A DNA stretch of 64,000 nucleotides, taken from Bacteroidales bacterium (GTDB lineage Bacteria > Bacteroidota > Bacteroidia > Bacteroidales > UBA932). Positions within the stretch are counted from its first letter, which is position 1. The number at the start of each line of letters is the position of its first letter. Under the pieces are notes generated by a model. It had not been told where the DNA came from and ran no database searches. It was given only the letters and a program-made list of their open reading frames with translations. The position numbers and the translations under genes were made by a program. Location of the stretch: the NCBI GenBank assembly GCA_017428245.1, contig JAFRRF010000002.1:62001-126000 (forward strand), read 5' to 3'. Positions 126-58,545 of the stretch are shown piece after piece.

Positions 126-1352
126 TTAAAAAACGGATAATCGGGGCTGATAAAGCTGGTCGCGGAGCCAGGGTGTGAAGCCCGTGGATGCGATAGCCTC
201 GCGCATCATCCGAACGGCCGCAGGACACGCGAGTCCGCCGCCCTGCCTGTACCGTCCGGGCTGTTCTTCTCGTCCGTCTCGTCCGTCTCGTTCGTCCTGC
301 TCGTTTCGCCCGTCCTGCCCGACCCGCCCAGGCATCTCATCGAGCGTATGATGCGCCCCTGCCGCTGATACCACGTTTTCTTCGATCATTATGGAACCCA
401 TATCATCGGCTCCGGCATGTAAAGCCCGTAGTCCGGTGGGAAGACCGACAGTCAGCCAGGAGGCTTGGATGTGATCGACATTGTCGAGTACCAGCCGGGC
501 GATGGCTACAGTACGGAGGAATTCTTCGTCGGGCGTCCAGCGGCGGGGTTCGCCCGGAAGGGCGATTCCGCCGGGGAGCCGGCCGGCGTCGGCCAGCCGC
601 TGAAGTTCGGTGCCGCTGAGTTGCATCGGCCAGCAGATGAAGGCACGGAACCCGGGGGTACCTGTCGGACGCGCATCCTGCAGTGTGCGCAGCGCCAGAA
701 GGTGGTCGATGCGCTCTCCCAGCGTCTCGATATGGCCATATACCATCGTAGCCGTCGTACTCATCCCAAGCGCGTGAGCCTCCCGCATCACGTCGAGCCA
801 CTGCCGGGCCGTAGGCTTGGCCGGCGACAAGAATCGGCGGACACGGTCGGAGAGGATTTCGGCGCCGGCACCGGGCAGCGTGTCGAGCCCGGCTACCTGC
901 AGGCGCTGCAGCACTTCGCGGTACGACAGGCGGCTGATACGGGCGATGTGGGCAATTTCCGGCGGACCGAGCGCGTTGAGTCGAAGTGTAGGTTCAGCTT
1001 CTTTCAACTGCCGGAAGAGAGTCTCATACCACTCGATGCCGTAGCGGGGATGCAGCCCGCCCTGCAGCAGGAGCTGGTCGCCGCCGAGTGTTTTCAGTTC
1101 AGCGATTTTCGGCAGATAGTCTTCGAAAGACAGGGTATAAGCCTTTTCCGGCTCGTCGGGCCGGCAGTGGAAATTGCAGAATTTGCAGCCGGAAAGACAG
1201 ACGTTGGTGTAGTTGACGTTGCGGTCGATCTGATAGCTGACGCGTTGCTCGGGGACGTGCGCATAGCGGGCGGCCTGCGCCTGTCCGCAGAGTTCGTCGA
1301 GCGGTGCGTCGCGATAGAGCGACAGGGCTTCGTCTTTGTCCAAACGTTTCAT
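126..1352 (-). CDS. mqnC: Cyclic dehypoxanthinyl futalosine synthase MqnC (radical SAM)
   Basis: Radical SAM enzyme of the futalosine menaquinone pathway, cyclising dehypoxanthine futalosine in the cytoplasm. The 4Fe-4S/SAM cysteines form CxxxCxxC at C52, C56 and C59. Family blocks GGDQLLLQGGLHP, LDTLPGAGAEIL and ATMVYGHIET separate it from the sister enzyme MqnE. The ATG at 1352 is preferred over the GTG immediately before it. The 408-residue protein is somewhat longer than usual because of a charged Gly/Arg/Asp/Glu-rich stretch at about residues 335-366. That stretch is encoded by a degenerate 9-bp tandem repeat (268-330) placed just before the conserved C-terminal helix, and the frame is kept. 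No other mqn gene is visible in the window. The family call is secure; whether the insert affects activity is unknown. Confidence 0.93.
   Translation of the reverse strand: MKRLDKDEALSLYRDAPLDELCGQAQAARYAHVPEQRVSYQIDRNVNYTNVCLSGCKFCNFHCRPDEPEKAYTLSFEDYLPKIAELKTLGGDQLLLQGGLHPRYGIEWYETLFRQLKEAEPTLRLNALGPPEIAHIARISRLSYREVLQRLQVAGLDTLPGAGAEILSDRVRRFLSPAKPTARQWLDVMREAHALGMSTTATMVYGHIETLGERIDHLLALRTLQDARPTGTPGFRAFICWPMQLSGTELQRLADAGRLPGGIALPGEPRRWTPDEEFLRTVAIARLVLDNVDHIQASWLTVGLPTGLRALHAGADDMGSIMIEENVVSAAGAHHTLDEMPGRVGQDGRNEQDERDGRDGREEQPGRYRQGGGLACPAAVRMMREAIASTGFTPWLRDQLYQPRLSVF
268..330. repeat. In-frame 9-bp minisatellite inside mqnC
   Basis: Seven consecutive 9-mers can be read on the plus strand: TCTCGTCCG twice, TCTCGTTCG, TCCTGCTCG, TTTCGCCCG, TCCTGCCCG and ACCCGCCCA. 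The period of three codons keeps mqnC open and encodes a charged linker of RDG/RDE/EQD-like tripeptides on the minus strand. The three most similar units are at 268-294, and divergence increases toward 330. Confidence 0.85.
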
Positions 1353-1432
1353 CACAGCTATTAAACGGAATTGCTAATATCGTCAAAAAAAACAGGATTC
1401 ACAAGTCTGCGGCCTCGGATTGCCGAAATCGG

Positions 1433-1866
1433 GTGAGCGAAAGACGCTGTCTCGCTCACCACTAGCTGAAAAAGCAGGGTTCCGTGAGTAGGGAATCCTT
1501 TTTCGCTCACGAGTGACAGAAAAAGACGGGTATGGTGAGCAGAAGGCCGCGAGTTGCTCACCGCTGACAGCGAGAATGGGTTTTCGTGAGCAGAAAGCTC
1601 TGATTTGCTCACCATCGGCTGAAAAACGAATGTCCCGTGAGCGAAAAGCCCCATTTCGCTCACCATCGACCGAATAACGGGGACTTCGTGAGCGGAAAGC
1701 CCCGTTCTGCTCACCACTGGCCGAATAACTGAGGCCTCGTGAGCAGGCGACCCCATTTCACTCACGAGTGGCTAAAAAAGGCGGGTGCGGTGAGCAAGAA
1801 GCCACCATTTGCTTACCACCAGCTGAATAACAAGGGCTTTGTGAACGGTAGCGTCCGTCGGCTCAC
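1433..1866. repeat. Nine-unit array of 27-nt palindromes at exact 51-bp period
   Basis: Units start at 1433, 1484, 1535, 1586, 1637, 1688, 1739, 1790 and 1841, a spacing of exactly 51 bp. Each opens with GTGAGC or a close variant and closes about 20 nt later with the inverted arm GCTCAC, giving a 26-27 nt imperfect palindrome. A similar 24-nt linker (CACTGGCTGAATAAC-like) follows. The outer stem positions co-vary: units 1 and 5 have GTGAGCGA with TCGCTCAC, units 3 and 4 have GTGAGCA with TGCTCAC. Because 51 is divisible by three, frames stay open for long stretches on both strands, but stops interrupt them (for example TAG on the minus strand at 1774-1772). The array fills most of the 646-nt region between divergent mqnC and the VOC gene. 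I see no gene here. Confidence 0.93.
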
Positions 1867-1998: not shown

Positions 1999-3069
1999 AT
2001 GAAAGAGAAAGTCATTTGCGGCCTGCAGCAGGTGGGCGTGGGTGTCAAAGACGCCAAGATATCGTGGAAATGGTATCGGAAGTATTTCGGGATCGACATT
2101 CCCGTGGTGGATGCCGTGGGCGTGGCCGAACGGATGCTGCCCTATACCGGCGGTAAGCCCCAGCCCCGCTACGCCATCCTCGCCATCAACCTCCAGGGCG
2201 GCGGCGGCCTGGAAATCTGGGAGCCCCGCGGCCGCGAATTGAACTACCCGGCGCAGCAGCCCCGGCTGGGCGATCTGGGCATCTTCATCGCCAAGATCAA
2301 GAGCCGCGACGTCCAGGCCACCTACGATTTCTTTGCGAAGGAAGGCCTGCGCCTGCTCTCGAAACCTTGCCCTTCGTTTGCCGGCCTCCTGCATTTCTAT
2401 GTGCTCGATCCCTGGAACAATATCTACGAAATCGAGCAGGACGGCTTTGTCTTTGCCAAATCGAAGACCTGCACGACCGGCGGTACCAATGGCGCCGTGC
2501 TGGGCGTCAGCGATATGGACCGCTCCATCGAGTTCTACGGCAAGGTGCTCGGCTTCGACGTGGTCCGCGCCGATGAGACGGCCGTGTTCGACGATATGCA
2601 GGGCCTGCCCGGCGGCGAACGGAAGGTCCGCCGCGTGATGCTGGAGCGCTCCAAGCCCTTCGACGGACCGCTCTCCAGCCTGATGGGTCCTTCGCACCTG
2701 GAACTGGTCCAGGCCCTCGATGAGCCGGTGGTCAAACTCTATGAGAACCGCTATTGGGGCGATCCCGGTTATATCCAGATCTGTTTCGACGTCCGCAATA
2801 TGGCAGCCGTCGAGGCTGACTGCAAGGCTGTCGGCCATCCGTTTGTCTGCGACAGCGGCGTCGATTTCGAGATGGGCGATGCCGACGGCCACTTCACCTA
2901 TATCGAAGACCCCGACGGAACGCTTATCGAGTTCGTCGAAACGTTCCGGATTCCGGTGATGAAAAAATGGGGGATCTATCTCGATTTCCGCAAGCGCGAC
3001 GACCACAAGCCCCTGCCACGCTGGATGTTGAAAGCGCTACGCTTCCTGCGTGTAGCCGACGTCGACTAG
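1999..3069 (+). CDS. Two-domain VOC (glyoxalase/dioxygenase superfamily) protein
   Basis: The 356-residue protein has two vicinal-oxygen-chelate modules, about residues 5-150 and 158-320. Each ends in the typical metal-site segment: HFYVLDPWNNIYEIEQD in the first, FTYIEDPDGTLIEFVETF in the second. The histidine near residue 135 and the glutamates of these segments are plausible metal ligands. No signal peptide is present, so it should be cytoplasmic. The substrate cannot be named; it is not a recognisable HPPD or methylmalonyl-CoA epimerase. The start is the ATG 24 nt after a TATATTTG box. The last 33 nt overlap the 3' end of convergent rnhA. A strong hairpin 18 nt past the stop (3087-3115) could terminate the transcript. 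Confidence 0.85.
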   Translation: MKEKVICGLQQVGVGVKDAKISWKWYRKYFGIDIPVVDAVGVAERMLPYTGGKPQPRYAILAINLQGGGGLEIWEPRGRELNYPAQQPRLGDLGIFIAKIKSRDVQATYDFFAKEGLRLLSKPCPSFAGLLHFYVLDPWNNIYEIEQDGFVFAKSKTCTTGGTNGAVLGVSDMDRSIEFYGKVLGFDVVRADETAVFDDMQGLPGGERKVRRVMLERSKPFDGPLSSLMGPSHLELVQALDEPVVKLYENRYWGDPGYIQICFDVRNMAAVEADCKAVGHPFVCDSGVDFEMGDADGHFTYIEDPDGTLIEFVETFRIPVMKKWGIYLDFRKRDDHKPLPRWMLKALRFLRVADVD

Positions 3070-58434: not shown

Positions 58435-58482
58435 ATTCCGGCCAAGATTTCCCCGTTATTTCTTGGCCGGAATTGTTTTTTT
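58435..58482 (+). terminator. Rho-independent terminator of the GH3 gene
   Basis: ATTCCGGCCAAGA (58435-58447) pairs perfectly with TCTTGGCCGGAAT (58461-58473), and a T-tract follows to 58482. It starts 29 nt past the stop. Confidence 0.93.
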
Positions 58483-58545
58483 CTCCTTCCGGCAAAGAAA
58501 AACCTGCTTTTCCTTTGCCGCCTGTGGAAAGATGCGAAAAAAACG

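Follow-up and report, generated by a model that had tools for sequence, protein, structure and literature searches.

Among described systems, the closest to the array reported here is that of REP sequences and REP-associated tyrosine transposases (REP/RAYT; TnpA-REP, REPtron, BIME, REPIN), in which short, mostly intergenic palindromes lie around a Y1/HUH gene. By the accounts in PMC3733652 and PMC6006769, repeat families are specific to individual transposases and copies inside genes are also known. An earlier note on this DNA, which knew of no named element of this form, was too categorical given so close a named kind.

The locus shares three features with a REPtron: dispersed intergenic palindromes (27 nt, in seven arrays), a repeat-flanked Y1/HUH gene (8 of 20 genomes) and a repeat family for each transposase (10 of 16 genomes, including two pairs in genome G329 and one GTGAGC clade). 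It differs in three others. The GT[AG]G/CGTC foot of REP sequences is lacking, with GTAG, GGAG, CGTC and their complements found before 5 and after 1 of 241 own-genus palindromes; the class-2 signature Y---NP is rare, NP occurring in 9 of 57 homologues; and where REP sequences mostly form inverted (head–head or tail–tail) dimers, the present units form head-to-tail satellites with a fixed period of ~51 bp. Because of the missing foot and signature, we do not assign the array to any described REP superfamily or TnpA-Y1 subclass, though it would work like one. Cleaving and joining of repeat single-stranded DNA, a property of REP/RAYT enzymes, is predicted here.

Other described elements are less similar. 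TnpA-Y1 subclass 2.6 occurs in Bacteroidetes, with atypical structures beside the gene and copies elsewhere in the genome, but as described in PMC6006769 its proteins have a median length of 179 aa and the signature YIH[QN]NP, which sets them apart from the 309–333 aa and YINRNG, YTHRN[GA] or YVHRNA found here. Rickettsia palindromic elements, in the account of PMC10969869, insert in frame into housekeeping genes, as do copies of the present family at nine mnmE and atpG loci of genus g62 (and none of the seven arrays of our own genome); their CGTC foot (RPE-4, RPE-6) does not occur in own-genus arrays, and the present family differs from them in its long tandem arrays and in the cognate transposase next to these. 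The BrickBuilt MITE of Porphyromonas gingivalis, from the same order, is by description a small intergenic element with tandem repeats (PMC4596501, PMC10969869). CRISPR arrays combine constant repeats with unique spacers, whereas here only the arms are near constant and linkers recur. Literature searches returned no description of such 51-bp arrays, which is no proof of absence. We consider the array to be probably a locally amplified REP-like repeat, cognate to a nearby HUH/Y1 transposase in a REPtron-like arrangement.

An exactly phased palindrome array

The array lies near one end of the window, by which we mean the whole 64-kb stretch analyzed, in a spacer with divergent genes on its two sides. 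Its nine units follow one another in exact 51-bp steps (Table 1). Eight are 27 nt long, their GTGAGC/GCTCAC arms departing from the pattern in no more than one of 12 letters; the ninth, a GTGAAC variant, has 26 nt. The linkers between palindromes measure 24 nt. The earlier note's description of nine 26- to 27-nt palindromes with these arms, strictly phased between divergent genes, was therefore accurate, and so was its remark, confirmed by counting stops in each frame, that near-open frames through the array are broken by stops.

Table 1 Features of the array and its surroundings, in window coordinates
Feature	Position	Strand	Remark
HUH/Y1 transposase-like gene, first codons	1..35	-	start codon chosen by eye
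MqnC-like radical-SAM gene, between transposase gene and array	126..1355	-	TIGR03699 below cut-off; TIGR00423 above
Tandem palindrome array, nine units, period 51	1433..1866	+	+ is the strand with A-rich mid-linker and AGCCCC-type core
Palindrome 1, 27 nt	1433..1459	.	0 mismatches to arm pattern
Palindrome 2, 27 nt	1484..1510	.	1 mismatch to arm pattern
Palindrome 3, 27 nt	1535..1561	.	0 mismatches to arm pattern
Palindrome 4, 27 nt	1586..1612	.	0 mismatches to arm pattern
Palindrome 5, 27 nt	1637..1663	.	0 mismatches to arm pattern
Palindrome 6, 27 nt	1688..1714	.	0 mismatches to arm pattern
Palindrome 7, 27 nt	1739..1765	.	1 mismatch to arm pattern
Palindrome 8, 27 nt	1790..1816	.	1 mismatch to arm pattern
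Palindrome 9, 26-nt variant, GTGAAC N14 GCTCAC	1841..1866	.	
Glyoxalase-superfamily gene, other side of array	1999..3069	+	

The pattern GTGAGC N15 GCTCAC, allowing two mismatches, matched nine times in the 64 kb: eight matches were array units (0–1 mismatch) and the ninth, with two mismatches, lay outside the array. Shuffled sequences gave a mean of 3.09 matches, and 1 of 100 reached nine. The palindrome count alone is thus only moderately unusual, and the exact phasing is the striking part. Tandem Repeats Finder reported period 51 at 1584–1772 (score 155), and Rfam at gathering scores had no match in the window. Elsewhere in the window, positions 58436–58520 hold two more palindromes, spaced ~51 bp, whose arms are different (TTCCGGCCAAG.. 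and GGCAAAG..); the TTCCGGCCAAG.. palindrome has a T run behind it and resembles a terminator. The MqnC-like frame has a 9-bp tandem repeat, TCTCGTCCG, inside its C-terminal end (268–296).

The array family in the genome and its relatives

The own genome measures 2.37 Mb in 62 contigs. In it, palindromes with 14–18 bases between exact arms occur 27 times, compared to none for a reversed control pattern. Seven arrays of 7, 10, 4, 3, 10, 8 and 3 units were found, 45 in total without the 26-nt variant. Unit-to-unit intervals were tabulated over 48 array rows from own-genus loci and contigs L029 and L030, using a finder that accepted 44–58 bp: 185 of 197 were 51 bp, ten were 50, one was 49 and one was 48, and leaving out L029, L030 and L131 gave 165 of 177 at 51 bp. 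Periods of 50 bp occur in the family and are usual in G388.

In the covariance-model search that the earlier note had proposed, a model built from 55 units matched 15 of 40 same-genus genomes (E ≤ 1e-3); across the family, at E ≤ 1e-5, it matched 46 of 398 genomes, in 4 of 25 genera. Named relatives of the flanking gene at >78% identity came from uncultured Bacteroidales or Bacteroidia MAGs, mostly ruminant. Counterparts of the window array, flanked by the same gene pair, occur in G039 (12 units), G018 (4) and G015 (4), and a sister array beside the transposase gene is likewise conserved. Shared by four species at one site, these arrays are old. Unit number differs between species at the same site, and higher-order repeats of 102 bp (C11 array) and 204 bp (C39a array) are present. 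Within one array, units share the orientation of core and linker, and linkers recur. A generic palindrome finder applied to array loci, which had been chosen beforehand for their arrays, gave 86 matches versus 1 in a control.

All seven own arrays are intergenic; six lie between convergent genes and the window array between divergent ones. Among array rows with both neighbors called (59 of 72), 23 were convergent, 12 divergent and 24 tandem, counts that are approximate because they come from a home-made gene caller that missed the transposase gene in L130.

Several palindromes with other arms were also seen. A period-52 array with GTCGTCCCA..TGGGACGA arms lies beside a GTGAGC array in G013 (L125:3500-3787), and a CCACAGAATG..CATTCTGTGG pair lies upstream of the glyoxalase-family gene at L022 and L023, in species without the GTGAGC array. 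Near recG in a related MAG (L023:5424-5552), palindromes with CGGGAGC arms form a short array of 51-bp period, and similar arms stand beside a HUH transposase in G352 (L306).

A HUH/Y1 transposase at array loci

A tblastx comparison between array loci, with the arrays masked, revealed one shared neighbor, a protein with an NHxH motif that measures 309–333 aa in eight aligned copies. This transposase gene was present at array loci in G000, G039, G018, G015, G013, G351, G388 and G217, that is, in eight of the 20 genomes whose loci were fetched. In G013 and G217 it has an array directly on each side. It also stands between two arrays in G000, G039, G018 and G015, where the MqnC-like gene intervenes. 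The gap between array and gene ranges from a few bases of overlap (G000) through 5 bases (G039, G018, G015) to ~130 bases. The own copy, at L020:5038-6036 and 333 aa long from the start codon chosen, has its end at the sister array (L020:4553-5038); beyond its opposite end, past the MqnC-like gene, comes the window array. Only ~35 bases of the gene fall inside the window, which is why the earlier reader missed it.

Several comparisons point to the HUH/Y1 family. A profile of the eight sequences matched an alignment of 12 Y1_Tnp proteins of the genus (270 columns; probability 99.2, E 2.5e-19), and the best PDB match was the ISDra2 transposase (E 0.017). Pfam Y1_Tnp was below threshold in two of six copies and absent in four, and NCBIfam REP_Tyr_transpos matched two of six weakly (E 4.8e-4 and 1.4e-3). 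A frame with the HxH motif was recovered at 57 of 62 transposase loci, and the distal tyrosine was kept in all 57 aligned homologues; as HxH was required when choosing frames, only the tyrosine column is an independent sign. The own signature is YINRNG, and in homologues lacking NP the N that comes next after the tyrosine is followed by G, N, A, S, C or Q.

Profile searches found a homologue in 31 of 40 genus genomes. The five best (512–547 bits; next 412, a gap inflated by the inclusion of those five sequences in the query profile) came from the five genomes with the most array-model matches (66, 50, 78, 14 and 70), and the genome with the next-best homologue, G035, had none. Presence of the Pfam family PF01797, taken as a first test for a transposase, did not track the arrays: it is present in 27 of 40 genomes but absent from G018, which has 50 array matches, and many PF01797 genes have hairpins with other arms. 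Such genes at L086, L156, L159–L161, L163 and L165 carry their own AATCG(T/G)(G/T)TGCG..CGCA(C/A)(A/C)CGATT hairpins, some on both sides.

Array arms follow the resident transposase

We compared the arms of dispersed arrays to palindromes beside resident transposases (59 loci, 1–3 per genome), counting matches with at most one mismatch. Matches were obtained in 10 of 16 genomes (G000, G039, G018, G015, G013, G329, G288, G050, G388 and G217), with the match center standing in for a frame that was not found at the G050 locus L307. The remaining six (G118, G390, G352, G355, G021 and G011) gave none at their one to three loci, the arms of G390 having been read off register. G329 has two transposases and two arm types, GTGCGT and GTATGC, one type matching each transposase and neither matching any of 56 loci elsewhere; the GTGCGC arms of G388 match none of 58 loci elsewhere; and GTGAGC arms match 6–7 loci elsewhere, in G000, G013, G015, G018, G039, G288 and G384. 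Transposases of the own genus, G388 and G217 were found via the adjacent array and are less independent as evidence than those of G329, G288 and G050. In G372, inspection by eye shows TCCTCA arms at both the transposase (L302) and an array (L201).

The six GTGAGC-labeled transposases, from two genera, form a single clade among 57 in a midpoint-rooted FastTree phylogeny, drawn without support values. The same 8-nt palindrome arm occurred on both sides of the gene at 11 of 52 transposase loci, the other 41 lacking it, versus a mean of 0.13 and a maximum of 2 with shuffled partners; none of the five own-genus GTGAGC loci was among the 11. Sequence comparison shows that the repeats adjoin transposase genes in several genera and that arm type follows transposase type.

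The pairing bears on the strongest of the alternatives, a multi-site array of duplex-DNA dyads, each the target of a dimeric architectural or regulatory protein, with 51 bp, about five helical turns, placing the sites on one face. The dominance of 51-bp intervals, the divergent genes around the window array and the conservation of own-genus arms beside diverging cores and linkers would all suit such a protein. We nevertheless regard it as unlikely, because the other six own arrays lie between convergent genes, 50-bp periods occur, some copies lie inside genes and arm type follows the HUH transposase rather than any regulator seen at arrays.

Paired arm changes across genera

In 241 own-genus units, the six left arm positions are 81–100% one letter and the six right positions 71–100%, compared to 48–86% for the 15 inner positions. 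Other genera have the same layout with other arms, for example GTGCGC, GTGCGT, GTATGC, GTGTGC, GGGTGC and GGGGGC, and related copies whose arms differ remain complementary and stay spaced at ~51 bp. The earlier note had read paired inner-arm changes as a sign of selected symmetry. Within the own genus this did not hold: over 54 distinct units from the own genome and two same-genus MAGs, 78.0% of cells were paired versus 78.8% in shuffles, and 493 of 500 shuffles were at least as high. It did hold in an alignment of 26 two-palindrome units from four genera, where both sides had changed in 13 of 18 pairs, both-side-changed cells numbered 40 versus 14.7 in shuffles, the covariation score was 0.338 versus 0.187 ± 0.015 and none of 500 shuffles reached any of five measures. 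These values are upper estimates, since the units were picked by a model or finder that rewards pairing and kinship can exceed what shuffles capture. Paired arm changes are accordingly strong across the four genera and not detectable within the own genus. Local hairpins and one long two-palindrome hairpin fitted alike (91.2% versus 91.5% of cells paired, not separable), although by eye the long form fits the atpG copies L243 and L244 better.

A chain of RNA hairpins in transcript 3' ends, acting on mRNA stability or termination, would account for the convergent bias (23 of 59 arrays; six of seven in the own genome) and for the excess of G.T over A.C (238 versus 118 over nine pairs on the oriented strand). 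We consider it improbable, more so than a protein-binding array: the G.T/A.C bias is reversed at pairs 6 and 7, covariation is absent within the own genus, Rfam is silent in the window, and an RNA stem alone does not require the same arms at unrelated loci of one genome. Protein binding and RNA hairpins, both raised in the earlier note, may be side roles, but neither explains the pairing of arms with HUH transposases.

Copies inside genes

Two-palindrome copies lie in frame inside mnmE (4 of 30 loci) and atpG (5 of 30) in genus g62 only, as judged by eye. Their best repeat lag was 51 in six and 52 in three; all nine loci were excluded from alignment A2 and read through peptides. The first two host proteins were confirmed as MnmE and ATP synthase gamma. 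In MnmE no exact insertion boundary was found, as loop length varies among homologues.

Further inserts and loops were noted in the same proteins. The G329 AtpG (L192/L235) has a second insert at about residues 220–262, and its residues 225–263 recur at two more sites of G329, C15:28167 and C12:19584. Several g62 MnmE proteins (loci L210–L234) carry an NKNV..NNxV-like loop at the same variable site, which in L211 resembles an AACA..TGTT palindrome at the DNA level.

The last alternative, a real or decayed repeat-peptide gene with a 17-residue period, also offered in the earlier note, we hold to be very improbable: over the seven own arrays (~726 codons) 8 stops interrupt frame +1, and the C9 array sits within an open frame of 124 codons, but other frames have 5, 11 and 16 stops, no single frame is open in all arrays, 48- to 50-bp intervals occur and arm conservation is symmetric.

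Discussion

Adjacency, homology, arm–transposase pairing and compensatory arms together lead us to the REP-like reading of the window array. Under this reading, the enzyme would recognize the palindromes as single-strand hairpins, with the arms conferring specificity, and the basic unit would be two palindromes ~51 bp apart. It would cut and join such units and spread them to intergenic sites, occasionally in frame into genes. Mobilization is suggested by the dispersal, arm specificity and in-frame copies; against it, neither a transposition event nor a clean empty site was seen, and the arrays shared by four species at one site are old. Two-palindrome units would then grow into satellites via unequal recombination, as the 102- and 204-bp higher-order repeats and the differing unit numbers at the same site suggest. 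No host function would be needed, and any effect at transcript ends or on nucleoid binding would be secondary.

More tentatively, and with somewhat less than even confidence, the enzymes of this Bacteroidales family may form an undescribed HUH subclass of ~310–330 aa with a C-terminal extension and Y---N[G/A/N] in place of Y---NP, acting on hairpin pairs ~51 bp apart. Several paralogues per genome would operate in parallel, each with its own compensatorily changing arms, and give rise to phased satellites and in-frame housekeeping inserts.

The family offers a natural series of transposase–hairpin pairs that differ in specificity, G329 alone holding two of them, from which the recognition rules of REP-type transposases could be read and put to the test. 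In an uncultured gut lineage, it also ties satellites and HUH enzymes to palindromic inserts of housekeeping proteins.
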